A DNA stretch of 64,000 nt from contig JAGXQV010000143.1 of assembly GCA_018336195.1 (NCBI GenBank), forward strand, positions 1 through 64,000, written 5' to 3'. The notes beneath the pieces are model-generated. The model saw only the letters and a list, made by a program, of their open reading frames with translations. It was not told the DNA's origin and ran no database searches. The stretch is from Sulfuricella sp. GTDB lineage: Bacteria; Pseudomonadota; Gammaproteobacteria; Burkholderiales; Sulfuricellaceae. The translations under genes and the position numbers were made by a program. Shown one piece after another: positions 2,364-38,433 of this stretch (positions within the stretch are counted from its first letter, which is position 1; every line of letters begins with the position of its first letter).

Positions 2364-4334
<1,971 letters not shown>

Positions 4335-4479
4335 TTTCTCTCCTCACTGGAATATTTGCTACGATACGATTCAAAACAAAACTGGGCGATGATAATGCTT
4401 TTATTCGCCGCTTTCCATACTGCACGGCAATCTTATATAAGATAAGTCTTACACACCCCTTACAAATTCAGGACACTCC
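4335..4479. promoter_or_regulatory. Divergent acs/glnE promoter region with perfect 12-bp palindrome
   Basis: This AT-richer 145-base interval separates divergent acs and glnE. It contains the perfect palindrome TCTTATATAAGA (4431-4442), and a shortened form, TCTTATAAGA, occurs before the TlpA-like gene at 8545-8554. The glnE ribosome-binding site is AGGAC at 4470-4474. The stretch 4448-4479 is the protospacer of a spacer in the local CRISPR array. Promoter boxes were not assigned. Confidence 0.5.
4448..4479 (+). other. Protospacer perfectly matched by a spacer of the resident CRISPR array
   Basis: These 32 bases, ending one base before the glnE ATG and including its Shine-Dalgarno, are the exact reverse complement of the plus-strand spacer at 26302-26333. 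The CRISPR RNA is transcribed from the minus strand, so its guide is identical to this plus strand and would pair with the minus strand here. One extra base matches: position 4447 is T, and the adjoining repeat copy ends in T in crRNA sense instead of the usual G. Bases 4445-4447 are AGT; the canonical I-E motif AAG is at 4444-4446, one base out of register. Confidence 0.97.
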
Positions 4480-7197
4480 ATGAATCCCACGCAAAACCAT
4501 GCCGTGATCGCCGCTGCCCTTGAACTCAGCCATTTTGCGCGGCGCCTGGCGCAAGGCAGCGCAACGCTGGCGGACGACCTCGCCGCTCACCTGGAGGAAG
4601 CCTGGACACCCGCCGCGATGCGCGCCGCTCTCGAAGCAGCCGCCCCCGCCGACGAAACGGCGCTGAAAAAGGCTCTGCGCGTCCTGCGCAGCCGCGTGAT
4701 GCTGCGCACCATCGTGCGCGACTTGGGCGGCCTGGCGGACTTGCGCGAGGTGATGGTCACCGCCAGCAGCCTCGCCGAAATCACCATCCGCTTTGCCCTG
4801 GAAAAACTCGACGGCTGGCAACGCGGCATCTACGGCACGCCCTTCAGTGAGGACGGCCTGCGCGAGCAGGATTTGATCGTGGTCGGGATGGGCAAGCTGG
4901 GCGGCTATGAACTCAACGTGTCGTCGGACATCGACCTGATTTTCGCCTTCCCCGAGGAAGGCGAAACCAGCGGCCCGCGCAAGACCAGCAACCACGAGTA
5001 CTTCGCCCTGCTCGGCAAAAAACTGATCCAGGCGCTCAACGACAACACCGAGGACGGTTTCGTCTTTCGCGTCGACATGCGCCTGCGCCCCTACGGCGAA
5101 AGCGGGCCGCTGGTCGGCAGCTTCGCCATGCTGGAGGAGTATTACCTCACCCAGGGCCGCGAATGGGAGCGCTACGCCTGGATCAAAGGGCGCCCCATGG
5201 TAGGCACCCAGTACGGAGAACTGGCGGCGATGCTGCGTCCCTTCGTGTTCCGCAAGTACCTGGATTTCGGCGCGTTCGCCTCGATGCGCGAATTGCACGG
5301 CCAGATCAGGCGCGAGGTGGCGCGCCGCGACATGAGCGACAACATCAAACTGGGGCCGGGCGGCATCCGCGAAATCGAGTTCATCACCCAAGTGTTCCAA
5401 TTGATCCGCGGCGGCAAGGAAGCCGCGCTGCAAACCCGCTCCACCCTGGAAGCGCTGGACATCCTGGAGGCGCGCCAATTGATGCAAGCGGACGCGGTCG
5501 CCGAGTTGCGCGCCGCCTATTTCTTCCTGCGCAACCTGGAACATCGCCTGCAATACCTGGAAGACGCGCAAACCCAGACCTTGCCGACGCGCGAGGAGGA
5601 GCGCCGGATGATCGCACTGGGCATGGGGTACCCCGATTACCCGGCCTTCCTGGCGGCGCTCGACGCTCACCGCGGCAAGGTGACCCGCCATTTCGAGCAG
5701 GTTTTCGCCGCCCCGCAAAGCTCGCAGGATAGCCACCCGCTGGCGGGGCTGTGGCAGGGTTCCCCGGATGAAGGCGAAGCGCTGGAGACGCTCGGCGAAC
5801 TCGGCTACCGGCAGCCCGGCGAGGTCTGGGAACGCCTTGCCAAGATCAAGCTCAGCGGGCGCTACACCCAGTTGCCGGAAAGTAGCCGCGCCCGTTTCGA
5901 CGCGCTGATGCCGCCGCTCATCCAGGTTGCCGGGCAATATCCCAACCCCGACGCCACCCTGGAGCGCATCCTCAACCTCATGGAAGCCGTCAGCCGACGC
6001 GGCGCCTATCTGGCCCTGTTGCTCGAATACCCACAAACCCTGGCCCAGGTAGCACGCCTGGCAAGCGCCAGCCCGTGGGTCTCCGACTACCTCACCAAGC
6101 ACCCCATCCTCCTCGACGAGTTGCTCGACACCCGTGAACTTTACGCCGCACCCGACTGGGACAAACTGAAAATCGAACTGGAAAAGCAGTTGAACGAAGT
6201 CGCCGACGACACCGAACGGCAAATGGACGTGCTGCGCCACTTCAAGCAGGCCCAGGTCTTCCGCCTGGTCGCCCAGGATTTGGCGGGCGCCCTGACGGTG
6301 GAGAAGCTCTCCGACCATCTCTCCGGACTCGCTGACCTGATCCTCGCCGAAGTCCTGCGCCATGCCTGGATGGGCGTGCGCAACCGGCACCGCGACGAAC
6401 CGTGCTTTGCGGTAATCGGTTACGGCAAGCTGGGCGGCAAGGAACTGGGCTACGCCTCCGACCTCGACATCATTTTCCTCTACGATGACGACGCGCCCGA
6501 AGCGCCGGAAATCTATGCCCGTCTCGGCCAGCGCATCAATACCTGGCTGACCAGCTTCACCGCCGCCGGAGCGCTCTACGACACCGACCTGCGGCTGCGC
6601 CCGAACGGCGCTAGCGGCCTGCTGGTCAGCACCGTCGAAGCCTTCGAGGAATACCAGAAAAACCAGGCCTGGGTATGGGAGCATCAAGCACTGACCCGTG
6701 CCCGCTTCTGCGCGGGCGACGCCGGAGTGGGCGAACAATTCGAGCGGATCCGCCACGCCGTACTGATCGCCCCGCGCGATCAAGCAGCCTTGAAAAACGA
6801 GGTGATCGCGATGCGCCAGAAGATGCTCGACGCCCACCCCAACCGGAGCGGCCAGTTCGATCTGAAACACGACCGGGGCGGCATCATCGACGTGGAATTC
6901 CTGGTGCAATACCTGATCCTTGCCCATGCCGCCGCCCACCCCGAACTAACCCGCAACAGCGGCAACTTGGCGCTGCTCAAGGCGGCTGGCGAAGTGGGCC
7001 TGATCTCCACCGAATTCGCCGAACTGTGCCGCACGGCTTACCGCGAATTCCGCAAGCGCCAGCACCAGTTGCGCCTGCAGGGTGCGGAATTCGCCCGAAT
7101 CGATACGGACGAAGCGGATAGCTTCGCTGCGCCGGTCAGGGAACTGTGGGACAATGTCTTGGGGCAAGACAAATCCCCGGCAAATCTCGATAAATAA
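4480..7197 (+). CDS. glnE: Bifunctional glutamine synthetase adenylyltransferase / adenylyl-removing enzyme
   Basis: GlnE switches glutamine synthetase off and on by attaching AMP to a tyrosine or removing it by phosphorolysis, in response to PII and glutamine. The 905 residues carry two nucleotidyltransferase domains: the N-terminal adenylyl-removase with VGMGKLGGYELNVSSDIDL (about 133-151) and the C-terminal adenylyltransferase with GYGKLGGKELGYASDLDI (about 647-664). Each is followed by its helical GlnD/PII-uridylyltransferase-like segment. The N-terminus is slightly short but the first domain is complete. A modest AGGAC site precedes the ATG. Its leader is the target of a spacer in the local CRISPR array. 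It is divergent from acs, followed by a 104-base gap, and probably monocistronic. Confidence 0.96.
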   Translation: MNPTQNHAVIAAALELSHFARRLAQGSATLADDLAAHLEEAWTPAAMRAALEAAAPADETALKKALRVLRSRVMLRTIVRDLGGLADLREVMVTASSLAEITIRFALEKLDGWQRGIYGTPFSEDGLREQDLIVVGMGKLGGYELNVSSDIDLIFAFPEEGETSGPRKTSNHEYFALLGKKLIQALNDNTEDGFVFRVDMRLRPYGESGPLVGSFAMLEEYYLTQGREWERYAWIKGRPMVGTQYGELAAMLRPFVFRKYLDFGAFASMRELHGQIRREVARRDMSDNIKLGPGGIREIEFITQVFQLIRGGKEAALQTRSTLEALDILEARQLMQADAVAELRAAYFFLRNLEHRLQYLEDAQTQTLPTREEERRMIALGMGYPDYPAFLAALDAHRGKVTRHFEQVFAAPQSSQDSHPLAGLWQGSPDEGEALETLGELGYRQPGEVWERLAKIKLSGRYTQLPESSRARFDALMPPLIQVAGQYPNPDATLERILNLMEAVSRRGAYLALLLEYPQTLAQVARLASASPWVSDYLTKHPILLDELLDTRELYAAPDWDKLKIELEKQLNEVADDTERQMDVLRHFKQAQVFRLVAQDLAGALTVEKLSDHLSGLADLILAEVLRHAWMGVRNRHRDEPCFAVIGYGKLGGKELGYASDLDIIFLYDDDAPEAPEIYARLGQRINTWLTSFTAAGALYDTDLRLRPNGASGLLVSTVEAFEEYQKNQAWVWEHQALTRARFCAGDAGVGEQFERIRHAVLIAPRDQAALKNEVIAMRQKMLDAHPNRSGQFDLKHDRGGIIDVEFLVQYLILAHAAAHPELTRNSGNLALLKAAGEVGLISTEFAELCRTAYREFRKRQHQLRLQGAEFARIDTDEADSFAAPVRELWDNVLGQDKSPANLDK

Positions 7198-24965: not shown

Positions 24966-25033
24966 TTAGCGCAAAGTAGTAATGTCCCCTAAGTTGCTAA
25001 ACTCAGCTTCTGTAAAAACCAGAGGCGGGCGGC

Positions 25034-25671
25034 ATGATGATGAGTCAGAAAGAAGCGAAACCGGCGCAGGTGATGGAACAACTGACGGCAGGCAAAATTA
25101 CCAGAAACAGGCCGGGAAACTGCTTGCGGTGAGCGTGCGTCAGATAAAGCGTATCGTCAAACGTTACCATGCTGAAGGATTGCCTGGCGTGGTCAGCAAA
25201 AAGCGCTGCGTCCCCTCAAACCGGAGGCTGAGCGAGGAAACGAAACGGCTGGCCATTGACCTGGTCGGCGCGCACTACCGCGACTTTGGCCCGACGCTGG
25301 CCGGCGAGAAACTCGCTGAGCGGCATGGTCTTGGCTTGTCCGTCGAAAGTACCCGCCAGCTGATGATTGCGGCGGGGTATTGGCGGCCCCGGAAAGGCGC
25401 CAAGGCGAGCGTCCACCCGATGCGCGAGCGCCGAGCGCGACTGGGGGAATTGATCCAGATCGACGGTTCGCCGCACGACGGTTCCAGGGGCGAGCCGAAC
25501 GCTGCACGTTGCTGGTGTTCATCGACGACGCCACCGGGCGGCTGATGCGATTACGCTTTGTCCCCACGGAAGGCACACTGGAGTATATGCGCGTCCTGCA
25601 TGACCACATCCTCGCCCATGGCCTGCCGATGGCACTCTACAGCCACAAGCACAGCATCTTCCGCGTCAACG
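25034..25671 (+). pseudogene. ISNCY-type transposase, frameshifted and cut off by the CRISPR array
   Basis: The reading runs MMMSQKEAKPAQVMEQLTAG, then shifts frame near 25100 to 'LLAVSVRQIKRIVKRYHAEG' and GPTLAGEKLAERHGL. It shifts again near 25480-25490 to RCTLLVFIDDATGRLMRLRF and ALYSHKHSIFRVNA. These are the N-terminal HTH and first part of the integrase-like DDE core of ISNCY transposases (full length about 450 residues; about 215 remain). Homology ends exactly where the first, half-length CRISPR repeat begins (25672). The gene is dead: two frameshifts and loss of its 3' half. Confidence 0.85.
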
Positions 25672-28255
25672 CCCACGGGCGGGGGGAACGCCTGGCGCCG
25701 TAGCCGTGCCATTTGGTGCGGCTCGGTTCATCCCCACGGGCGGGGGGAACACTGCTTCTGGTTTTTCCCGGTAAACCCGGAATCCGGTTCATCCCCACGG
25801 GCGTGGGGAACACGTAATGCCGAGGTCTCCGCCAGCGCCAACTGTCGGTTCATCCCCACGGGTGTGGGGAACACTCCTCAAAATCGTCTTGCTGATGCTT
25901 AATTTCCGGTTCATCCCCACGGGCGTGGGGAACACGCGACGACGGGGTGCTACGTTGAGCCGAATAGAGGTTCATCCCCACGGGCGTGGGGAACACCACC
26001 CGCAGTTGATCGTTTCGGAGGCCGGCGCCGGTTCATCCCCACGCTCGTGGGGAACACGCTATCCAACTCAGAGTTGGTTCCGTCCTGAGCGGTTCATCCC
26101 CACGCTCGTGGGGAACACGTATTCGGCCAATTCCAGCGCCTGGGCGCGGTCGGTTCATCCCCACGCTCGTGGGGAACACGGCAAAAAGGTGTTTATCCCG
26201 GCGTCCCTGATCGGTTCATCCCCACGCTCGTGGGGAACACACATACTATCGGGGTACCACTGGCTGTATAACCGGTTCATCCCCACGCTCGTGGGGAACA
26301 CGGAGTGTCCTGAATTTGTAAGGGGTGTGTAAGAGGTTCATCCCCACGCTCGTGGGGAACACTCAATAACTACCGGGAATTGCGCCGGATGTAACGGTTC
26401 ATCCCCACGCTCGTGGGGAACACTCGCATGGTGTGGTAGCAGCAGTCGACGACGGCGGTTCATCCCCACGCTCGTGGGGAACACTGATACCTGGATCGCA
26501 CCTCTGGATGTCGTTTCGGTTCATCCCCACGCTCGTGGGGAACACCGTGCCTCGACGCGGGGTACCGCCCGCGCCCTCGGTTCATCCCCACGCTCGTGGG
26601 GAACACGTACGCGGTAATCCTTCATAAAGCGTGATAGGCGGTTCATCCCCACGCTCGTGGGGAACACTTGGGTGTCGATGTAGACGATCATGGGTTCCCC
26701 GGTTCATCCCCACGCTCGTGGGGAACACAACGCCAGCCGTATTTGCGCAGCGCTGACATACGGTTCATCCCCACGCTCGTGGGGAACACATCGGCATCGG
26801 CTGTGACCGCTGCGCGGCCATCGGTTCATCCCCACGCTCGTGGGGAACACGCGTGACGGAAGCCGTGACGCTCCTCAATCACAAGGTTCATCCCCACGCT
26901 CGTGGGGAACACGATAAAAGCATCGTGGTACTTGATGAAGCTGGCGGTTCATCCCCACGCTCGTGGGGAACACGGTGTTGAGCCACGAATTCGCCACCCC
27001 GGTTGCGGTTCATCCCCACGCTCGTGGGGAACACTTTACACGCGGGCCGGGCATTACGTCTGCCCGCGGTTCATCCCCACGCTCGTGGGGAACACTGCAA
27101 GGGAGAGGCGGAAATGCTGGGGTCTTCCGGTTCATCCCCACGCTCGTGGGGAACACCGCTGCGGCGATCAGCATCGCATTACCAATTGCGGTTCATCCCC
27201 ACGCTCGTGGGGAACACAGCTGCCTATCTAGCAAGCCTTGATTGAATATCGGTTCATCCCCACGCTCGTGGGGAACACTAGCGCACCCGCCGTGCAGGGC
27301 ATGGGTGGGACGGTTCATCCCCACGCTCGTGGGGAACACTGCACCCGCCGCACCCGTCCATCCAGCCTATCCGGTTCATCCCCACGCTCGTGGGGAACAC
27401 GAGCCAACATTTCCAGAGCTTGTGCAAGCCTACGGTTCATCCCCACGCTCGTGGGGAACACCAGCAAAACCTCAATCCCAACCTGATTTCCGGCGGTTCA
27501 TCCCCACGCTCGTGGGGAACACCTGTCGGCGATGCGCTTGCGCGCGGAGATTTCCGGTTCATCCCCACGCTCGTGGGGAACACAATTACCTCCTCTCCGG
27601 TAATCGCGCTGACGGCGGTTCATCCCCACGCTCGTGGGGAACACACCAGCGCCGCCGGAAAACCCGGTTGCACACGTCGGTTCATCCCCACGCTCGTGGG
27701 GAACACATGCGGCCCTCGCCGCCGCCGGCGTGAAGCGGCGGTTCATCCCCACGCTCGTGGGGAACACAATTCCAACACCGTCGGCAGGCGCGGGGTGTTC
27801 GGTTCATCCCCACGCTCGTGGGGAACACACTATAAATCCGTTGCCAATCGGGAAATTTCCCGGTTCATCCCCACGCTCGTGGGGAACACTTCTTCAAACT
27901 CTTCGAAAGATTCTTTACTTGCGGTTCATCCCCACGCTCGTGGGGAACACATGACATATGGGATGGTGCTGCCGATATTATTCGGTTCATCCCCACGCTC
28001 GTGGGGAATACAAAACGGGAAAGAAAACCATCCTCCATCATCCCGGTTCATCCCCACGCTCGTGGGGAACACGTTATGGCTATATTACGTCATGGCCCGC
28101 AATGCGGTTCATCCCCACGCTCGTGGGGAACACTCACCAATTCCATGAATTGCTGGCGGCTTTCCTGGTTCATCCCCACGCTCGTGGGGAACACTTGGTG
28201 CCGCCAATCCGTCTACATACTGTCCGCGGTTCATCCCCACGCTCGTGGGGAACAC
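25663..28255 (-). CRISPR. Type I-E CRISPR array, 42 full repeats plus one half repeat, 42 spacers
   Basis: The plus strand shows a 29-base repeat with core TTCATCCCCACGCTCGTGGG, repeated every 61 bases from 25724 to 28255 (two 62-base intervals, after 26822 and 27616). Its reverse complement, starting GTGTTCCCCACGAGCG and ending GATGAACCG, matches the I-E repeat form, so transcription is minus-strand from the leader at 28256. Spacers are 32 bases (two are 33). The five oldest full repeats (25724-25996) differ in the hairpin loop (GGG for GCT on the plus strand), with further decay in the two end copies. The copy at 25663-25691 is half transposase sequence. Four repeats vary at the base adjoining the spacer (25968, 26334, 26884, 28166), and the copy at 27983 ends AATAC. 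Confidence 0.99.
26302..26333 (-). other. Self-targeting spacer matching the glnE leader
   Basis: This 32-base spacer, eleventh from the trailer and thirty-second from the leader, is identical over its full length to 4448-4479 (reverse orientation on the plus strand). The neighbouring repeat copy (26334) carries the rare terminal variant that extends the match by one base. See the protospacer entry for the PAM register. Confidence 0.97.
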
Positions 28256-28360: not shown

Positions 28361-29564
<1,204 letters not shown>

Positions 29565-29573
29565 GGCTAGCGG

Positions 29574-29744
29574 TCAGGCGTCGCCTGATTTGCGCTGAAG
29601 CAGGCGGCTGGCGTTGCGCAACTTGCGAACATCGAATTCCGGCTCCGTGTCGGCGAAACTTTCCAGCGGGTTCAGACGCTCAAAAAACGCCGTGGCGTCG
29701 GCGACCGGAGTTTGCCGGATGGCGGCTTTCCGGGGGTGGTGCAT
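29574..29744 (-). CDS. Small 56-residue protein of unknown function directly upstream of cas1
   Basis: The frame starts MHHPRKAAIRQTPVADAT and contains AFFERLNPLESFADTEPEFD and VRKLRNASRLLQRKSGDA. AGAGGAG sits eight bases before the ATG, a good ribosome-binding site, and the stop is nine bases from the cas1 start, so expression with cas1-cas2 is likely. The protein is charged, without membrane segment or signal peptide; it probably forms two helices around an acidic middle. I do not recognise a family, and it is not a standard I-E component. It could be an adaptation accessory, a remnant antitoxin, or unrelated cargo. Confidence 0.6.
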   Translation of the reverse strand: MHHPRKAAIRQTPVADATAFFERLNPLESFADTEPEFDVRKLRNASRLLQRKSGDA

Positions 29745-29780
29745 GTCTCGCTCCTCTTGTGTTAAGTAATAGCAGTTCTT

Positions 29781-29891
29781 AGTTTTGAGTGTTTAGTGTT
29801 GAGTTGTGGAATGCGCTTCGCGCCTGATTCAAATCCGACGCGCTTTGCGCGGCGACATCAACTAAACACTCAACACTAAACATTCAAAACT
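29781..29891. repeat. Inverted repeat of the dispersed AGTGTTTAGTGTTGAG family
   Basis: The left arm AGTTTTGAGTGTTTAGTGTT (from 29781) pairs with the right arm ending AACACTAAACATTCAAAACT (29872-29891), 19 of 20 bases complementary, around a GC-rich centre. It fills most of the 253-base gap between the toxin gene and the 56-codon ORF. Related copies lie at 49521-49625 and 53455-53488. The rest of this gap shows no gene. Confidence 0.85.
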
Positions 29892-29997
29892 GTTTTTGCC
29901 TTTCACTTATGCAGGTTTTCATACGTTGTGGTGAAGCATCGTCTGTCGGCGCAGGCCGAAACTGCGGCCATTGGCAGGGGGGCCACCTTCCCCATGC

Positions 29998-30480
29998 TTA
30001 TTCGCCGGAAGCTGCCAACGCGGCAGCAATGATCTCCCCGCTCAGAAAGTAACCGGAGGCTGCAAGCACTTCCAACAGCGGCTTAACCAGCGGAACCAAG
30101 CCCTTGCGTTTCGCCAGAACCAGCACACCCACCGTGCCGATCACCGGTATGTCGGCATTCTTCACAATTTTGCGCCCTGCTTTATCCTCCATCAGAACGC
30201 CGCAGCCAAAGTCGATGGCTACCGCAATCGCGCTCGCCTCGCCGCCATCAATCTTTTGTGCGTAGGCAGAAAAATCCGGCGCGGCACACAATACCAACTG
30301 CTTCTTGTCCACCGCTTCCCGAATCAACGGACTCTCGGGAAAATCCACTCTTCCGGCACACTCGGCAAATACGACATCGGTCACAAACACACCGTCGAAA
30401 ATCTGCGGCAACAAACCCAGTTGATCGAGACGGGAAAACGCGATCAACGGGCCGGCATCCGCAATGACGATCTTATTCAA
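29998..30480 (-). CDS. PIN-domain toxin (DUF3368 type)
   Basis: A 160-residue PIN-like predicted ribonuclease. The first acidic residue lies in IVIADAGPLIAFSRLDQL at the N-terminus, the second in DGGEASAIAVAI, and a third in GVLMEDKAGRKIV, the DUF3368 pattern. Such proteins act as VapC-like toxins that cut RNA and are paired with UPF0175 antitoxins. The gene overlaps its antitoxin by eight bases, the normal coupling. It is inserted between cas6e and cas1 in an otherwise canonical I-E operon. All visible acidic residues are intact, so it may be active. Target RNA unknown. Confidence 0.85.
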   Translation of the reverse strand: MNKIVIADAGPLIAFSRLDQLGLLPQIFDGVFVTDVVFAECAGRVDFPESPLIREAVDKKQLVLCAAPDFSAYAQKIDGGEASAIAVAIDFGCGVLMEDKAGRKIVKNADIPVIGTVGVLVLAKRKGLVPLVKPLLEVLAASGYFLSGEIIAAALAASGE

Positions 30481-30796
30481 AGGCCGCCAACTCCTGCTGC
30501 AACTCTTCCTTGCCGTAACGCACCACCGGAATTTTCAGCGCGCCGAGATAGTCGATGAATTCGCCCTGCGGCATCCCGGAAAGCTTCGCCGCCTTGCCCA
30601 GACTAATCACTTCATCGTCAAAAAGTTTAACGGCCAGTGCCACGCCCACCCCTGCCTTGAGCAAAGTTTCATCAAACGGCACCGCCACAAATACCGGTTG
30701 ACCATGTTTGGTCACGATGGAGAGCTTGCCCGCCTCGGCATCGCGGATCAGTTCGCCGGTGCGTTCGCGTAAATCGCGGACTGTAAAAGCGTCCAT
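30473..30796 (-). CDS. Antitoxin: Phd-like N-terminus fused to UPF0175 domain
   Basis: A 107-residue protein. Residues 1-45 resemble Phd/YefM DNA-binding antitoxins (TVRDLRERTGELIRDAEAGK, then VTKHGQPVFVAVPFDE). The remainder is a UPF0175 helical domain (LAVKLFDDEVISLGKAAKL, then MPQGEFIDYLGALKIPVV). It should neutralise the DUF3368 toxin encoded directly after it and repress their shared promoter. GGTAAGCC precedes the ATG; a clear AGG is in CAGGTAAG. It begins 49 bases after the cas6e stop, so read-through from the Cascade genes could also express it. Confidence 0.83.
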   Translation of the reverse strand: MDAFTVRDLRERTGELIRDAEAGKLSIVTKHGQPVFVAVPFDETLLKAGVGVALAVKLFDDEVISLGKAAKLSGMPQGEFIDYLGALKIPVVRYGKEELQQELAAFE

Positions 30797-30845
30797 GGCT
30801 TACCTGCCTTTCAAGTAATTGTGCTATCAAATGGTAGCACAATAT

Positions 30846-31571
30846 TTATGGGCGTCGCACCAGCAGCAAGCCGCAGCCGAAGCTCTTGGCGTGGCCCAGC
30901 CCGTTAAATAGCGCCTGTTGGAATAATTCGGGATCGGTCACCAGCAACTCCCCTGAAAAATCCACTGTACTGAACTGAATAAGGTGTCCGCGCTTGCCTG
31001 CCTTACTTTGCTCATAGGCATCGACTTGTACCTTGCGTTGCGGTTCATCGTTAACCGTCAGCGCGATTTCGAAGCCATTTCTTTTCGCCACCCCGTCAAG
31101 CCATGCTGCGCAATGTTCTTGCACCAGTTCATACAACAACGGCTTGTCGCTGCCGTCTTTCCAGTCCTTCCATTTTGCTTCCTGGCTGTGCCCGTGTTCA
31201 GCCAGCAACTGTTTTTTGGCTTGCATGACGACATCGTGGCGCCGGGATTTTCCATCGGCACTTTTCCTGGTGATCACCGGGTTGGCGCGAAGCTGGAAAG
31301 ACAAGTGTTGGCCTGCCTGCAATTGCGGATCATAGCGGCGGCTTTGAACCTGCCACGCCTCGCTGAATGCCATGGGTGGCCGTTGTGACACCACGTAAAA
31401 ACGCGGCATCTGTTCGAGCTCATGACGGCGAAAAACAAAATCGCGCACCTGATCCGCACTGCTGGGGAAGAACTGCCACAGCCACTGGTGCTCGGCATAA
31501 GGCGATTGAGCCAATTCATGCGCGGCTTGCCGCAACAGATGTTCTTCCGGGGTAATGACGCTGAAATACAT
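30846..31571 (-). CDS. cas6e: Cascade endoribonuclease Cas6e
   Basis: Cuts pre-crRNA at the repeat hairpin and stays bound to the 3' end of the crRNA in Cascade. The 241 residues form two ferredoxin-like folds. The catalytic His is in YAEHQWLWQFF (His28, with Tyr25), corresponding to the conserved E. coli site, and the C-terminal Gly-rich loop GLGHAKSFGCGLLLV is present. The array repeat keeps a six-base stem (CCCCAC/GTGGGG), a suitable substrate. It starts five bases after the cas5e stop. It is the last Cascade gene before the inserted toxin-antitoxin pair. Confidence 0.97.
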   Translation of the reverse strand: MYFSVITPEEHLLRQAAHELAQSPYAEHQWLWQFFPSSADQVRDFVFRRHELEQMPRFYVVSQRPPMAFSEAWQVQSRRYDPQLQAGQHLSFQLRANPVITRKSADGKSRRHDVVMQAKKQLLAEHGHSQEAKWKDWKDGSDKPLLYELVQEHCAAWLDGVAKRNGFEIALTVNDEPQRKVQVDAYEQSKAGKRGHLIQFSTVDFSGELLVTDPELFQQALFNGLGHAKSFGCGLLLVRRP

Positions 31572-31576
31572 GGCTT

Positions 31577-32341
31577 TTAGTCCTTAACTAGCAAGGCGAT
31601 ATGTTCGCTACGGTCGGCAAACTGCCAGCCTTGGCGGGTAATTACCTGGTCTTTGCGGACGATGCTCAAGTCGCGTTGCACGCCGATGGTTGAGCTATCA
31701 TCCGAACCGAAATCATCGCCCCAAGCTATCTTGTTAAGCGCTAGACCGGTTGGCAGCGGCTGCTTGGGGACGTGTTGCAGCCACAGCGCCGACAATGCTT
31801 CCTGGTAATCCGAAAATGCCGCGCTGATGGTGTCGGCACTCACGATGCAGGGATGCAAAGGTGCCGCGACAGGGCAGGACTTGCGCCCCAGATACAGCAC
31901 AAATTTGGGGATTTTCAACGCCTCGGCCAACTGTGCCAAAGCGTATGGCGCATTCGCCAGCATTTGTACCGCCACCAAAGAGGCAGCACCTTGCCGATAA
32001 TCACGGCTCGATAAAATGGTGTTGAGGTCTGTTTTCGGTAACGACAATTCGTCCCGCCGCGTCGCGTGGGGGCGCTTTTTCAGATCGGTGCGGCTGGGTA
32101 CTTGCGCAGTGTGATAGTCGCGCATGAGCCGCCCCTGGCTCAATACGCCCACGGCCAGGCGATAGCCCGCCCGCAACGAGGCTTGTGCCCCATCATCGTC
32201 CCGATCCACGCCCAATGCCGCTCCCAGCAAGCCGTGCAGGGCGGACTGGCTCGGATATTCCGCGCTGGGCCGATATTCACCCACGGCCACTTCGCCCCAC
32301 GAGGACAAGGGGGCTTGCAGTTGGAAAATCAAGGTTTCCAT
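31577..32341 (-). CDS. cas5e: Cascade subunit Cas5e
   Basis: A 254-residue RAMP protein that caps the 5' handle of the crRNA. It opens with LIFQLQAPLSSWGEVAVGEY and has EYPSQSALHGLLGAALG, RLMRDYHTAQVP and the thumb 'RDELSLPKTDLNTILSSRDY'. The Cas5e signature FVLYLGRKSCPVAAPLHP follows. The length is standard. It sits five bases after cas7e and before cas6e, the canonical order. The residues contacting the 5' handle appear conserved, so it should assemble normally. Confidence 0.97.
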   Translation of the reverse strand: METLIFQLQAPLSSWGEVAVGEYRPSAEYPSQSALHGLLGAALGVDRDDDGAQASLRAGYRLAVGVLSQGRLMRDYHTAQVPSRTDLKKRPHATRRDELSLPKTDLNTILSSRDYRQGAASLVAVQMLANAPYALAQLAEALKIPKFVLYLGRKSCPVAAPLHPCIVSADTISAAFSDYQEALSALWLQHVPKQPLPTGLALNKIAWGDDFGSDDSSTIGVQRDLSIVRKDQVITRQGWQFADRSEHIALLVKD

Positions 32342-32346
32342 GGCGG

Positions 32347-33417
32347 CTATTCCACTATGAAATCGGCAATCGCACTCAAGCTGCCTTCACCCGTTTCCAC
32401 GTTGAATTGCGCGCTTGCTTCGGCGCAATCGCCGTAAACCGCATTGAAATTGTTGCGTCGATCCATCAATGCCTTGATGGCGCGGGTCATGGTGTCCTCG
32501 CCTTTTTTAGGATGGGGTTTGACCGGCCTGAGAAAAGCTTGCGCCAGGCTGCGTGGCTGTTGGTCGCCTTTTTCAGCCAGCACAAAACCGGCATAGGCGC
32601 GCGAAGCGAAGCTGTTTTGCTTGCCGGTCGGCGACACCTTGGTGACCGCTTGCATGAAGGCATTCAAGGCCTTGTGCGTCAATTCGGCATCGCCCCCCAG
32701 GTTTTCCTGCAATAGCTCGCGGTTGATGCAGATATACAAATAAAACACGCCCGCGCCAAAACCCAGTTCGCCGATATGCGCGGCACCACGGTCTTCCTCG
32801 CCGGTATTGAGGTCATCGACGGCAATAAAATAATCGTCTTCGACGGCGGCTTTATGCACGGTGATGGCATGTGCCACCTGGATGGCTGCTTCGGTATTGA
32901 AAGCCGGCGATGAAGCCAACATCCGGCCAAACATCGCGATATCCACTGCGGTATGTTGCTTGCGCAACAGCTTCAAATCGTCCTCTGTCGGTGCCGTATC
33001 AGTTGTCGCCAATTGGCTCACCAAGTCGGCAATCGCCTTTTCTTCTTCCGGGCTAAAATGCACCAATTGTTCAACGTGCAGGTCTTCATTGTTTTCGGTC
33101 TTCTTGTCGGATTTCAATTTGCCAAACTGGTTGGCAATTGTTTTTGCCCATTCGCGCGCATTTTTCTCACTGACGCCCTGCTTGATCAGCGCCTGATAAA
33201 CACTGATACCCTTTTCCTTGGTGCGTGTGCCGATGTGCCCTTTCAATTCAGACTCAAAAATGTCAGAAGTGCGCCAGGCTCGCTTCAAGCTTTGCGAAGA
33301 AATGCGCAAACGGGTGCAATCGCCGATCACAGCGGTCTTTGGCCGTCCGGTATCGTCGCGATTCAGGTTTGAGGGGGGATAGCTGGTGAGGATATGCAAT
33401 TGCACGAAGCGGGACAT
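32347..33417 (-). CDS. cas7e: Cascade backbone subunit Cas7e
   Basis: A 356-residue protein; six copies form the helical backbone on the crRNA spacer and kink the target strand. It starts FVQLHILTSYPPSNLNRDD and has 'VIGDCTRLRISSQSLKRAWR', the typical Cas7e finger, and a C-terminal ELGFGAGVFYLYICINRE strand. I use the ATG at 33417, preceded by CAGGAG; an upstream in-frame start would add 29 unrelated residues. It lies 44 bases after cse2. No truncation or motif loss is seen. Confidence 0.97.
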   Translation of the reverse strand: MSRFVQLHILTSYPPSNLNRDDTGRPKTAVIGDCTRLRISSQSLKRAWRTSDIFESELKGHIGTRTKEKGISVYQALIKQGVSEKNAREWAKTIANQFGKLKSDKKTENNEDLHVEQLVHFSPEEEKAIADLVSQLATTDTAPTEDDLKLLRKQHTAVDIAMFGRMLASSPAFNTEAAIQVAHAITVHKAAVEDDYFIAVDDLNTGEEDRGAAHIGELGFGAGVFYLYICINRELLQENLGGDAELTHKALNAFMQAVTKVSPTGKQNSFASRAYAGFVLAEKGDQQPRSLAQAFLRPVKPHPKKGEDTMTRAIKALMDRRNNFNAVYGDCAEASAQFNVETGEGSLSAIADFIVE

Positions 33418-33461
33418 GGTTTTCTCCTGGGTGGTTTTTCGTAAAGAGTCTGTTTGGGAAA

Positions 33462-33974
33462 TCAGGCGGGCTGCTTGACCGGCCAGCGGTAGCTGTAAGC
33501 CCATTTCTTCCTGGTGTCGTCATTCCACCAATAGACATCGTGCGCCAGTTGCTCGATGCTGGCTTGATAGCCGATCAAGGGCAGGATGCGGCGCAAACCG
33601 ACAAACAGATCAGCGGTAGTCTCGATCTTGAGCAAATCGCGAAAACGCAGTTCCGACACCAACGGCTTGTCGCCGGACAGCTCGGACATCTTGACGGGCA
33701 GGCGTTGCGTGTCTTCGGTTTTGACGCTTGCCAACAATCCGGCAATGGCGGCCAGCTTGTCTCTTTGCCATTCACCGGCATTTTCAGGCCAGGCATTGCA
33801 GGCCAGCAGGTAGCGGTAAAAACGCTGATAGGCGTCGCTTAACGCCACGGCATCCAGCGTTGCGCAACGCCGCAACACGGCCCGACTGGCGCGGTCGTCT
33901 TCCAGCCCTTGCCACCATTTGTGCAACGTCTTCCCCAAATGGCTTTCTGCGTTCCAACTGATTTTCTCTTCCAT
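33462..33974 (-). CDS. casB: Cascade small subunit Cse2 (CasB)
   Basis: A 170-residue, all-helical protein; a dimer stabilises the displaced strand of the R-loop. Family features are HLGKTLHKWWQGLEDDRASR near the start, AVLRRCATLDAVALSDAYQR and the C-terminal YWWNDDTRKKWAYSYRWP. Lengths of 160-200 residues are usual. It lies 11 bases after cse1, inside the Cascade operon. Confidence 0.95.
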   Translation of the reverse strand: MEEKISWNAESHLGKTLHKWWQGLEDDRASRAVLRRCATLDAVALSDAYQRFYRYLLACNAWPENAGEWQRDKLAAIAGLLASVKTEDTQRLPVKMSELSGDKPLVSELRFRDLLKIETTADLFVGLRRILPLIGYQASIEQLAHDVYWWNDDTRKKWAYSYRWPVKQPA

Positions 33975-33985
33975 GATTCGGCCCT

Positions 33986-35668
33986 TTACAATGACAATTG
34001 AGCTTGTGGTGCAGCGGATAATTTGGCTTTCTTGCCTTCTTTGGCAGGCTTGCCTTTTTTCTCGGTCACCGGCAAACGCAAGATGGTTTTAATTGCATCG
34101 TCTTTCAGATTCCTTTGCAGGCCGTTATAGGCTTCGGCAATACGGCGTGGGTCTTGCTGGCCGATAGCGCCTGCGCCGACAATATCCGCATCAAACAGCC
34201 GGATTGCGCATTGGCTCAAGACCTTGAGCCAGGTTTCGCCCAGAACAATGATGAAGTTGGCATCATCCATGTCGATGCCCGCCTCGGTGCGCGCCTGTTT
34301 GATCAGATCGTTCAGTTGCCGATAAAAATCGGTTTCCGTGCTGTCCCAGAACGCCTTGTCGACGAAACTCAAATCGCCGCGCAAGTCGCTTTCGCCAAAC
34401 CAGGCCTGTTTGACGGCTTGGCGCAAGTAAAAGACGGCTTGTTCCGTGGCTTCGATTCGGTTGGCGACAAGGTTCTGAATCTGCGCCTGGGCAGCCCGCG
34501 TAGCGTCCTCCAGGCCGTACAAAGGAAAGGTGGTTTCGTACCAGCAGCGGGGTTTCATGTTGTCCATGTCATAGCCAAACACCCATACCCTGAACTGGCC
34601 GGACTTTTGGTATTTCTTGCGCTCTTGGAGGAAATAATCGACGATCCCGGCTGCTTGAACGGATTTTTTCCCCTGCTTGACCCCCAACACCCATGCCAGC
34701 CAGTTCTTGTAGCTGAACCCACCCGGTTGAGGGTGGACGGGCAACCAGCCCTCCTTGGTTTCGTAATAGGGCGAAAACGGATGCCGCCACACGCCCTTGT
34801 AATTCAGACCCTGCGGCTTGGTGACGTAACGGTGCAGCAGTTGTGTCGAAGCGCGCTTGCAGATGTCGCACCGCCCGGTTTGCACATCCGCGAAATCCAC
34901 GCGAATACGGCGCGGCATGGCCCAAAACACATGATGCGGATGCACTTGCAGCGGCTGGGTCTCGCCGCCTGCGGGCTGAATCTTGCTGATCTCGGCAAGC
35001 CATGGAAAGGTGAAGTGCTTCGCTGTTTTCTGAGTATCACCGCCACGTTGCAAAAATACCCGTTGCGGCTGGACATTGAGCCACAAGTCTTGCCACAAGC
35101 TGCGCGATGGCGTGGCAACGACTAGCGTGGTTAATGGCCCACCTCCTCTTAAAGAAGTGTAGTTCCCCGCACCACCTTCTGGCGCATTGGTTTGCAATGT
35201 AAAAAGTGCGGTTGCCGCACAATGCGGACATAGCCCTTTAACTTGACCACACTTCACAAAAAGATCCTTATTATCTTTTTGTGTGGACACACCTGGAGCC
35301 TCAATAAGCAATAAAGATATTTCCTTAAGTTTTGATGGCGCAATGGCGCTAATATCAAGGCTGAAATCCTGCATGAACCGCGCGCCGTCGCCATCCAGCA
35401 CGAAAGCCTCGGCAATCGGGGCAAACCATTCCCGTAGGACTTCGGCTGTAGGCGGCGCGTCCAGCAAGCCTTCCCAGTCGCCTTCGTCATCAATGGGCGT
35501 AGTTGTTTGCAACAGGCCTATCAGCCATTGCGCCAACGCCCCGTTGAAGTCGGCCCGGTTGGCGGCAAACGCCACAATATCCGGCTCGCTGATTTGGTGC
35601 GGCGCGATCCAGTCGGTCTGCCCTGTACTACGGCGAACAGGTAGCCAATTCTCTTCCAATAAATTCAT
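33986..35668 (-). CDS. casA: Cascade large subunit Cse1 (Cas8e)
   Basis: A 560-residue protein that reads the PAM and recruits Cas3. It opens with NLLEENWLPVRRSTGQTDWI, the Cas8e start. A zinc-like cluster CGQVKGLCPHCA (about 148-160) and a second Cys pair CDICKR are visible, and the C-terminal helical bundle is present. A Lys/Ala-rich tail (PVTEKKGKPAKEGKKAK) follows. It overlaps the end of cas3 by four bases (ATGA). Its PAM preference cannot be read from sequence alone; the self-target protospacer shows AAG one base out of register. Confidence 0.96.
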   Translation of the reverse strand: MNLLEENWLPVRRSTGQTDWIAPHQISEPDIVAFAANRADFNGALAQWLIGLLQTTTPIDDEGDWEGLLDAPPTAEVLREWFAPIAEAFVLDGDGARFMQDFSLDISAIAPSKLKEISLLLIEAPGVSTQKDNKDLFVKCGQVKGLCPHCAATALFTLQTNAPEGGAGNYTSLRGGGPLTTLVVATPSRSLWQDLWLNVQPQRVFLQRGGDTQKTAKHFTFPWLAEISKIQPAGGETQPLQVHPHHVFWAMPRRIRVDFADVQTGRCDICKRASTQLLHRYVTKPQGLNYKGVWRHPFSPYYETKEGWLPVHPQPGGFSYKNWLAWVLGVKQGKKSVQAAGIVDYFLQERKKYQKSGQFRVWVFGYDMDNMKPRCWYETTFPLYGLEDATRAAQAQIQNLVANRIEATEQAVFYLRQAVKQAWFGESDLRGDLSFVDKAFWDSTETDFYRQLNDLIKQARTEAGIDMDDANFIIVLGETWLKVLSQCAIRLFDADIVGAGAIGQQDPRRIAEAYNGLQRNLKDDAIKTILRLPVTEKKGKPAKEGKKAKLSAAPQAQLSL

Positions 35669-38433
35669 TCCGTTGCCGCTCCCTCTTGAGGTTCTGCCAC
35701 CCGCAAACCAAAATCCGCGTCGTATAGCCAGGTCAGAAGTTGCGGCTTCTTTCCCAGCTTCTCATTTCCCGCAGTCCAGCCCTGCCCTACCCACACCCCG
35801 TCCTCACGTTGCTTCAACGGCAGCAGCACACACCATTTGCCCTGGCTGGGCAAAGCCTGCTGCAAATTCGTATAGGCCATTTTCCGCGTTGGGTCGGATG
35901 GCGCATCTACGTTTGCCAGCAAGCGGGCCGCCACTTTGACCATGCTGTAGGCCCACGCGCCTTCCGCCCAAGGCTGCAAATTGCCGTCCACCCACTTTGC
36001 CAGCATGACCTCCATGGTTTCTTCGCCCAGGCGGGACGGCGTTTTCGCCTCACTCCACCAGTCGCCGATTTCGCCGCGCTTATATCCGCCGTCGATTTTC
36101 AGGGTGTATAGCTGCGCCAAACTGGCTTCGGACATTTCCTGGCCTTTCGCTTTCATGGCGTTTTTCGCAAGGGTTTCCGGCAGGGTTTCCGTTTCCGAAA
36201 AAACGTTTTCAATCAGGTTTCTGGCGTCGGACGGCATGGTGAATCCGCCTCTCTGCAATACCTTGGCGGTCAGCCACAACTGCCCGTGATGGTCATACAC
36301 GTATTGGGCTTTTTCGAATGCGGCGCCGTACCAATCCGCGCGCGGCTGTTCTGTCCACACGGGAGCATATACCCAGAGACATAGCGCCGGACGCTGATCC
36401 TTGGCGTCGCTGGCAAGCAGACGATTGCCCTCGGCATCGCGCACATGACGCTGCAAACGCCCCGCCCGCTGCAAGACGCGGTCTATCGGCGCCAAATCGG
36501 TGACCAGCACGTCAAAATCCACATCCAGGGATTGCTCGGCGACCTGCGTGGCAATCATCAAGCGCCCCTGGCGATCAGGCTGCTTGCTGTCTTCGCCAAA
36601 TGAGGCCAATACCCGCGCTTCTTTTTCCAGCCTGTCGCGCAGGGCAAATCGGGCGTGAAACAGCGTGATGTTTTTCGGGGAAACCGTTCGGGATAAGCGC
36701 TCGTAGGCATCCATCGCATCGGCAACGGTGTTGCGTATCCATCCCACGCACCGCCCTTGTTGCAGCCCCGCAATAATGTACGCAAAGACTTTTTCAACGT
36801 CGGCTTCGTAATGCACTTGCACGGTGCGGGAGACATTGGCGCGAGAGGCAAGCGGCTCTTCCCGTAAAACCGTTAACCCATCGTGCCAGCGTGTGGCCAG
36901 CGGGTAGGCGTCCGAGCGCTGCGCGGGTGCCGAAACATGGTTGCGGCCCTTGGCATAAGCGTTGAGTAAGGCCTGTTTCATGCGGCTGGGCAAGGTGGCT
37001 GACAACAGAATCACCGGGCCGCCGGTGCGCGCATGGAATTCCAGCAACACTTCCAGAACGCCTTGCATATAGGCATCGCAGGCATGCACCTCGTCAACGA
37101 TCAGTACTTTGTTGAACAGCCCCAGCAAGCGCAACGATTGGTGTTTACTGTGCAACACCGCCAACAACGCCTGGTCTATCGTCCCTATCCCGGCGGATGC
37201 CAGTAATGCACGTTTGCTATGGTCGGCCAGCCATGCCGTGCAACGCGCTGAAGCGGTTTCATCCAGTTGAGCGCCATCCTGTTCTGGGCTGTCCGCAGGC
37301 AAGACCGAAGCGGCAAACTCTTCCACCAGCTTTCTATGACCGTGCGCCAGCACCAGATTGGCATTATCCACAAAGAGCTTTTGATAGACCTCGGCAACGC
37401 GCCGATACATGGCATTGGCAGTCGCCATGGTCGGCAAGCCGATAAAAAAGCCTTCCGCCAACTCCTGTTCCATCAGGCGGTAAGCCAACATCAGCGCGGC
37501 TTCGGTTTTCCCGGCTCCAGTCACATCCTCCAGCAAATAGATTTGCGGCGCTTGCGGGATGTCCACCGACATGGCCCATTGCTGCAATGGCGAAGCTTCT
37601 TGAATGTTCTGGAACAGCGCCTTGAAAGAACACCCTTGGGCGATGGTGGAGGGTGAAACCCCGGAATGGGACAGTGCTTCGATTGCCTGGCCTTGCGCAC
37701 CTTCCCAATATGCCCCCAAAGCCATGGACGGGGCTTGATAAGGGAAAAACCGGGTATTGGAGCCCAGCCAGTCGGCCAATACCGTGACGCCCGCAAACCA
37801 CCACGACATCATTTCACTGGCGATTTTGAAATTGGGGCTGGCGGGAATGCGGCGCGCCTCTTCGGTGAGCAGCAACTGCGCCATCGCTTGCACAAAATCC
37901 GCAGCAGCCTGCTTGTCTTCGCGTCGAAAAAAACTGTCTGTATTGCCGCTGGGTTTGGGCGGCATACCGTGATGCCCGGTTACCGCCAGCAGCCAGCACT
38001 TGAGGCTGCGCTGGGTGTTACGCGAAGCGTCGATGCCGATTTTTGGCAGCACCTCATCAACCAGATAATCTTCCCAAAGCCAGAAACCCAGGGAATCGTG
38101 GCGTTCACTGTATATTTTGGTCGGGTTCGGCGTGCGCATTTGCAACGCTAAAATCAAATCGGGTCGTTGCGATTGAAACGCCTCGCTGAACTTGCCCAAA
38201 TCATGCAATACCAACAATAAAGCCGACCATGACAAAAATGCCTGTTCAGAACAGCCCAGTAACCCGCAGCAGGACTTAAGCAAAGAAGACCGTTCAAGAT
38301 AAGCCACGCCGACCGCCGCCACATCCAAACAATGGTAGGGCAACAAATGCCAGCCCGGCTGACCTTCCGATGCAGACACATCATCCGCCTTGCCCCAGTA
38401 TTGAAAAATCAAATCGCTTTGCCGGTCAGTCAT
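35665..38433 (-). CDS. cas3: CRISPR-associated helicase-nuclease Cas3 (type I-E)
   Basis: Degrades target DNA after recruitment by Cascade. The 922-residue protein has an N-terminal HD nuclease with metal ligands H34 and D37 (YHCLDV), HD in LHDLGK (77-80) and GHHGMP (about 153). An SF2 helicase follows with Walker A TGAGKTEAAL (about 305), DEVH box (about 445), SATLPS and motif VI QRAGRLQRH (about 660). All catalytic motifs are intact, so interference should work. This matters because one spacer matches the host's own glnE leader. It is the first gene of the minus-strand operon; its promoter should lie in 38434-38745. Confidence 0.97.
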   Translation of the reverse strand: MTDRQSDLIFQYWGKADDVSASEGQPGWHLLPYHCLDVAAVGVAYLERSSLLKSCCGLLGCSEQAFLSWSALLLVLHDLGKFSEAFQSQRPDLILALQMRTPNPTKIYSERHDSLGFWLWEDYLVDEVLPKIGIDASRNTQRSLKCWLLAVTGHHGMPPKPSGNTDSFFRREDKQAAADFVQAMAQLLLTEEARRIPASPNFKIASEMMSWWFAGVTVLADWLGSNTRFFPYQAPSMALGAYWEGAQGQAIEALSHSGVSPSTIAQGCSFKALFQNIQEASPLQQWAMSVDIPQAPQIYLLEDVTGAGKTEAALMLAYRLMEQELAEGFFIGLPTMATANAMYRRVAEVYQKLFVDNANLVLAHGHRKLVEEFAASVLPADSPEQDGAQLDETASARCTAWLADHSKRALLASAGIGTIDQALLAVLHSKHQSLRLLGLFNKVLIVDEVHACDAYMQGVLEVLLEFHARTGGPVILLSATLPSRMKQALLNAYAKGRNHVSAPAQRSDAYPLATRWHDGLTVLREEPLASRANVSRTVQVHYEADVEKVFAYIIAGLQQGRCVGWIRNTVADAMDAYERLSRTVSPKNITLFHARFALRDRLEKEARVLASFGEDSKQPDRQGRLMIATQVAEQSLDVDFDVLVTDLAPIDRVLQRAGRLQRHVRDAEGNRLLASDAKDQRPALCLWVYAPVWTEQPRADWYGAAFEKAQYVYDHHGQLWLTAKVLQRGGFTMPSDARNLIENVFSETETLPETLAKNAMKAKGQEMSEASLAQLYTLKIDGGYKRGEIGDWWSEAKTPSRLGEETMEVMLAKWVDGNLQPWAEGAWAYSMVKVAARLLANVDAPSDPTRKMAYTNLQQALPSQGKWCVLLPLKQREDGVWVGQGWTAGNEKLGKKPQLLTWLYDADFGLRVAEPQEGAATE

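Follow-up and report, generated by a model that had tools for sequence, protein, structure and literature searches.

The window analysed here, a stretch of 64,000 nucleotides, belongs to contig C143 (67,364 bases) of a MAG of 4.77 Mb that comprises 211 contigs and is 99.5% complete, with 7% estimated contamination. Read from right to left along the minus strand, it encodes cas3, cse1, cse2, cas7, cas5 and cas6e (30846–38433), followed by cas1 (28644–29564) and cas2 (28361–28663), next to which lies the leader end of a type I-E CRISPR array (25663–28255, minus strand). The reading frames of all eight I-E cas genes are open, and each gene scores above the cut-off for an I-E or Cas family (NCBIfam), which bears out the original prediction that cas3, the Cascade genes, cas1 and cas2 are intact. 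Cas3 passes both the cas3_core and the cas3_HD models, with the equivalog PRK09694 just under its cut-off (523.8 vs. 569), and the HD, Walker A, DEVH, SAT and QRAGR motifs are recognizable by eye. Of the 306 residues of Cas1, 7–306 can be aligned to 5vvk, a solved Cas1 of E. coli (E = 8e-148), over a stretch that includes the catalytic residues and the C-terminal tail. Cse1 shows no more than a distant similarity to the solved CasA (54.6 bits), so that its PAM tolerance may differ.

Between cas6e and cas1, on the same strand, are a UPF0175 gene (30473–30796) and a DUF3368 gene (29998–30480), a toxin-antitoxin-like pair by virtue of a weak Phd match (antitoxin) and a PIN-like character. In four genomes of three families (G000, G011, G065, and G086; loci L136, L139, L141, and L146), I-E loci have this pair inserted between their effector genes and cas1-cas2. 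In the family relative G011 (L136), its members are 64% and 40% identical to those of the window and separate the effector genes from cas1 (85%) and cas2 (89%); the effector genes found there by tblastn, in the order cas6e-cas7-cas5, are only 25–31% identical, and cse1 was not found by tblastn. Thus, when 28361–38433 of the window is compared with L136, cas1, cas2 and UPF0175 are conserved (85%, 89%, and 64%) whereas the effectors have diverged and are reordered, a pattern of module exchange in which the effector module was probably replaced in one of the two lineages. Among 250 genomes of the order (a sample without G011), the DUF3368 protein was found at 12 places in 10 genomes; besides its own place, the pair adjoins cas1-cas2 at 2 of 11 (G065 and G086, from two other families), where cas5 and cas6e are 46–53% (G065) and 28–33% (G086) identical to those of the window. 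In G140, where UPF0175 has a close relative (64%), this gene and the DUF3368 gene run into the contig end, and the remaining eight DUF3368 places comprise five with a UPF0175 match of 26–35% and three without any. The UPF0175 proteins linked to cas genes are 54–64% identical to that of the window, against 26–35% for the five located away from cas genes. Word matching in open-licence papers found no paper on UPF0175 or DUF3368 together with CRISPR. Between cas1 and the DUF3368 gene, inspection by eye suggests a small ORF of some 55 codons (29577–29744, minus strand), in a gap that measures about 10 bases in G086 and G065.

The array consists of 42 clear repeats (25724–28255) and, by eye, one degenerate distal repeat, which together delimit 42 spacers. 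Its geometry is typical of type I-E (repeats of 28–29 nt, spacers of 32–33 nt, period of 61–62 nt), and the repeat, read on the minus strand, is similar to the E. coli I-E repeat. The oldest repeats (1–5; 25724–25996) have GGGCG or GGGTG in the middle, like the G011 repeats, and repeats 6–42 (26029–28255) have GCTCG, a change that appears to be a mutation copied into all later units. Transposase-like ORFs at 24982–25703 run into the degenerate distal repeat; their HTH matches are below the Pfam curated cut-offs, and the second ORF has no family. Spacer 11 (26363–26394) is similar, with 5–7 mismatches of 32, to a dispersed sequence with the core CATCCGGCGCAATGCCCG that is present at four places in three genomes of the family (G000, G001, and twice in G015; L011, L020, L021, and L023) and is possibly a REP- or MITE-like repeat; since this match is imperfect, spacer 11 was left out of the self-match count.

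Spacer 10 (26302–26333, minus strand) is the reverse complement, at 32 of 32 bases, of positions 4448–4479 on the plus strand of the same contig. This protospacer abuts the start codon of glnE (4480–7197, plus strand), the A of the ATG being position 4480; the ORF encodes the glutamate-ammonia-ligase adenylyltransferase of 905 amino acids (Pfam GlnE, 7.1e-138), whose closest relatives (70–71% identity) mark the MAG as that of a Sulfuricellaceae-like betaproteobacterium. The 20-base prefix of the spacer occurs twice in the window at up to 2 mismatches, compared to 0 occurrences in 100 shuffles. At up to 3 mismatches, the 32-mer is represented in the whole MAG by the array and glnE-leader copies only, and the reversed control pattern by none. 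Accordingly, the perfect self-match that had been reported from a first inspection is confirmed, with no further copy in the genome, and the description of the spacer as an old one, about 32nd from the leader and yet retained, agrees with the repeat count, which makes it the 32nd of 42. The alignment to the own genome and to relatives that had been proposed as a check recovers the two own copies, whereas the sequence is absent from 398 other genomes of the order (up to 3 mismatches). The spacer 10 crRNA, transcribed from the minus strand in the direction away from the leader beside cas2, is identical to the plus strand of the glnE leader and hence sense to the glnE mRNA. Being of the same sense, it cannot pair with this mRNA; only the template DNA strand could pair. 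No sigma-70-like promoter was found on the plus strand in 4250–4600 around the glnE start.

Because the crRNA has the plus-strand sequence of the glnE leader, its PAM has to occupy 4445–4447 on that strand. The genome sequence in crRNA orientation reads AAGT immediately before the protospacer, which begins CTTACA, that is, AGT at the position where AAG is expected, with an AAG one base further upstream (4444–4446; a slip of +1). In E. coli, all 64 PAMs of the I-E system have been assayed: interference was measured on two protospacers, and priming on one of these, G8 (PMC6568314). The G8 protospacer has AA before the PAM, so that AGT in this context carries the same off-register AAG, and AGT was classified as “stable” and gave no priming, even when the AA was replaced (PMC6568314). 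The same source indicates that an off-register AAG can give some interference (the AGA case), that CAA primes, and that AGG belongs to the interfering group (PMC6568314). Thus, judged by its sequence and by the E. coli rules, the glnE target has no functional PAM. The original prediction had held that a full self-match next to intact cas genes should be lethal; given that type I-E requires a PAM and that the target has AGT, which is inert in E. coli, in place of AAG, this expectation falls away. Its other contention, that the cell must tolerate the spacer, is correct: a perfect, old self-match has been retained beside an apparently intact I-E system.

The repeats themselves carry a record of capture. 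In type I-E systems, the repeat base at position -1, which adjoins the spacer, is derived from the PAM of the captured fragment (PMC8482600). In crRNA orientation, this base is G for 38 of the 42 spacers (p about 3e-16 vs. the local base composition) and at 132 of the 138 repeats of G011, so that a PAM-derived G marks the end of the repeat in both arrays. In repeat 11, by contrast, the first plus-strand base (26334) is A instead of C, which in crRNA orientation is T instead of G, and this T equals the genomic T4447; therefore, the G of AAG was not the first base of the captured glnE fragment, which was one base off. A flipped capture at the ATG on the other strand would leave identical letters and would be indistinguishable from the slip of +1. 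Spacer 4 also has a non-G repeat base, without a perfect self-match.

Comparison of the array with its own genome, in a search that scored 40 of the 41 first-look candidates, revealed three further perfect matches, all on other contigs, which brings the count to 4 self-matches among 42 spacers. Spacer 19 (26851–26883, minus strand; 33 nt) matches a gene for a rhodanese-like domain protein on contig C142, with CGT at the PAM position; neither end has an AAG in the register or up to 3 bases from it, so that this spacer fits neither a slip nor a flip. Spacer 21 (26974–27005, minus strand) matches a PAS/HisKA/HATPase sensor kinase gene on contig C30, with CGG at the PAM position and CTT across the 3′ end, equivalent, on the opposite strand, to an AAG in precisely the canonical register; the spacer looks like a fragment that was cut correctly and would have been inserted backwards. 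Spacer 40 (28134–28165, minus strand), the second from the leader, matches a response-regulator/PAS/GGDEF/EAL gene on contig C91, with CAA at the PAM position and AAG shifted by -1; its harmlessness would be less secure, in that CAA primes in E. coli. An in-register AAG is found at none of the four perfect self-matches, the flanking bases being AAGT, CGT, CGG, and CAA; CGT (spacer 19) and CGG (spacer 21) were judged by the missing in-register AAG and not by their E. coli class. The three additional targets lie within unrelated coding sequences, and of the four self-spacer crRNAs, two have the sense orientation relative to the targeted gene and two the antisense one.

The other target contigs have a GC content of 0.60, and their tetranucleotide correlation with the window (0.81–0.87) compares with 0.665–0.845 among chunks of the window itself and 0.78–0.79 for two Sulfuricella loci; in addition, parts of them are matched in the genus's one other genome. 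They look native, although this composition would be compatible with a close relative as the source too. A second perfect match was not found on any of the four target contigs, the two additional ones being at chance level (spacer 30 at C143:12428–12450, 23 bases, 91%, E = 0.9; spacer 21 at C91:23382–23410, 29 bases, 83%, E = 6), so that these contigs appear to bear no clear trace of self-priming. Other weak self-matches (E = 0.04–6) were set aside as chance.

The association between self-matching and the base recorded in the repeat is pronounced: a self-match is seen for 3 of the 4 non-G spacers vs. 1 of the 38 G spacers (Fisher p = 0.0014), so that G occupies the recorded position in 1 of 4 self-spacers compared to 37 of the 38 others. 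Furthermore, AAG at +1, at -1 or in the flipped canonical position accompanies three of the four self-matches, whereas chance provides it at 4.2% of sites (199,698 sites on both strands of the window and three other stretches), which gives P(at least 3 of 4) = 2.8e-4; all these values rest on four self-matching spacers and on tests framed after inspection of the data. The frequency of self-matches, 4 of 42, also exceeds the 0.4% of spacers quoted for nature in the literature (P = 2.5e-5), and this excess is not accounted for by capture error alone. The 137 spacers of G011 have no perfect match in their own genome (85% complete), a single 25-base stretch at 96% having been set aside; therefore, G011 offers no case in which the relation between self-matching and non-G bases could be replicated. 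Another relative, G008, has only 4 repeats. For a wild-type type I-F system, canonical PAMs have been reported for 66–70% of chromosomal vs. 93–95% of plasmid spacers, in a study that describes slipping and flipping and explains the chromosomal PAM deficit by survival (Staals et al., 2016; PMC5059440).

Searches for foreign targets returned little. An exact scan of 7 of the 42 spacers against IMG/VR (10, 15, 16, 20, 36, 37, and 41; spacer 10 whole, the other six as parts of 24–26 bases) found no target. A foreign origin of spacer 10 was considered and rejected: there is no exact copy of it in IMG/VR, and none of the 9 matching phage records covers it. Among these records, the one match wholly inside a spacer is that of spacer 38 (28012–28043; fourth from the leader) to the primase/helicase gene of Pseudomonas phage MiCath (two records; L150), with identity at 27 of 29 central bases, 5 mismatches of 32 overall and a BLAST E of 0.2. 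The phage has AGG instead of AAG at the PAM position, the G of which agrees with the recorded repeat base; this would be a weak candidate foreign target and does not establish the PAM. The array matched 66 plasmid records, and among the 60 inspected most matches are long or in multiple pieces at 60–80%, a form that suggests other arrays; two plasmid matches of at least 95% at the border of spacer 33 and repeat 34 (24 and 28 bases; E = 0.7 and 0.2) were taken as chance. Megablast of the array gave no plasmid match, and megablast of the G011 array no phage.

Taken together, these observations make it very probable, in our assessment, that spacer 10 is a fragment of the bacterium's own chromosome that was captured one base out of register and has persisted as tolerated, inert and neutral baggage. 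Under this scenario, Cas1-Cas2 would have taken up a piece of the chromosome with a slip of +1 from a genuine AAG, and this piece would have been inserted as an ordinary I-E spacer. The resulting crRNA would fit the glnE leader perfectly and yet meet AGT instead of AAG, so that Cascade would fail to license Cas3 and, to judge from E. coli, would not initiate priming either, leaving the spacer to be retained without consequence. The other three self-spacers are probably tolerated likewise, by virtue of different capture errors (a slip of -1, a flip, and a case with no AAG nearby). An AAG requirement, working interference and crRNA production in this organism are presumed. The pattern fits imprecise chromosomal acquisitions that survive through their inability to cut. 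Two processes could underlie it: self-spacers with an in-register AAG would kill the cells, so that only errors survive, or foreign spacers would stem mainly from accurate, interference-driven acquisition and chromosomal ones from a sloppier naive acquisition. Each of these would yield the pattern by itself, and both presuppose a working system.

This presupposition would be void if tolerance of the spacers simply reflected a CRISPR-Cas system that is silent, that an anti-CRISPR blocks or whose swapped effector module does not cooperate with the rest. A frequency of 4 self-matches among 42 spacers is indeed high, and the contrast in G011 between the effector genes (25–31% identical) and cas1/cas2 (85–89%) is compatible with such a swap. 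Nevertheless, we regard this explanation as very unlikely, given that all eight cas genes are open and have family matches and that with interference off the self-spacers should carry G like the rest of the array, whereas 1 of 4 does so, against 37 of 38. An artefactual origin, namely that the array and glnE come from different organisms joined by mis-assembly or strain mixture, could be invoked in view of the 211 contigs of the MAG and a contamination estimated at 7%. We give it almost no credence: the array spacer and its glnE target are located about 22 kb apart on the one 67 kb contig, spacer 10 is embedded within regular 61-base units, and the other self-target contigs agree with the window in composition.

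The original prediction had also raised the prospect that the cell uses the spacer. Specifically, Cascade might bind the glnE leader without cutting, lower glnE transcription and thereby tune the adenylylation of glutamine synthetase. The 32 bases that precede the ATG are all protospacer, which would suit a roadblock, whereas the other three self-matches are within ORFs; extra base pairing can partly overcome a non-AAG PAM in Cascade binding (PMC5904413); and repression of hut genes in Klebsiella has been attributed to a PAM-less self-spacer of a type I-E* system (PMC12188710). These precedents notwithstanding, among 399 genomes of the order, only the spacer's own contains the spacer/target sequence (up to 3 mismatches), the 398 others including 12 of the family, so that there is no conserved spacer-target pair of the kind expected for crRNA-guided endogenous regulation. 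Nor is the protospacer stretch conserved in nine aligned glnE leaders (its own and those of 8 of 19 relatives), among which a GATAAG motif just upstream of the protospacer recurs in six (its own and five others). Furthermore, the signatures of capture error are common to self-spacers in unrelated coding genes, AGT is inert in E. coli (PMC6568314), and the sense orientation of the crRNA excludes antisense action. Regulation of glnE therefore strikes us as highly improbable, and the suggestion of use is left without support by the unconserved pair, the sense crRNA and the unrelated genes hit by the other self-spacers. A combined version, in which the capture error made spacer 10 a non-cutting guide whose weak, PAM-less binding dampens GlnE production, would be slightly more doubtful still; if true, it would link a CRISPR system to nitrogen control and make mis-registered self-acquisition a source of new regulators. 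The glnE spacer shares with the hutT self-spacer of Klebsiella an I-E-like system, a PAM-less self-match and a metabolic target (PMC12188710). The Klebsiella repression, however, is reported from a cascade deletion, whereas the glnE case is read from the sequence and the pair is unconserved.

Tolerated capture error thus remains the preferred account of spacer 10, and its interest lies in the combination, within one natural array, of a complete type I-E system and four perfect self-matches. Three of these can be read as out-of-register or backward captures, and for three a non-G base has been kept at the end of the repeat. Such a base might flag harmless self-spacers in other I-E genomes even when the target has not been found, and the four spacer-target pairs offer ready test pieces for the PAM tolerance of this Cascade. 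Word matching in open-licence papers found no report of this glnE self-spacer.

Among known systems, one close parallel is with the PAM-less self-targeting spacers described previously (Stern et al., 2010, as cited in PMC6990116), which share with the present case the perfect match to the own chromosome, the intact system and tolerance through a missing PAM. The present case differs in that three of the four spacers reveal a likely cause (slip of +1, slip of -1, and flip), and the off-register or non-G base has been preserved in the repeat for three. The second parallel is with slipped and flipped acquisition (Shmakov et al., 2014, as cited in PMC6568314; Staals et al., 2016, PMC5059440), in which the same capture one base off was observed, as was the same reverse insertion that leaves the PAM exactly registered on the opposite strand. 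Those observations come from laboratory acquisition experiments, whereas here the errors appear on self-derived spacers, in the naturally formed array of a Sulfuricellaceae-like bacterium that is uncultured.
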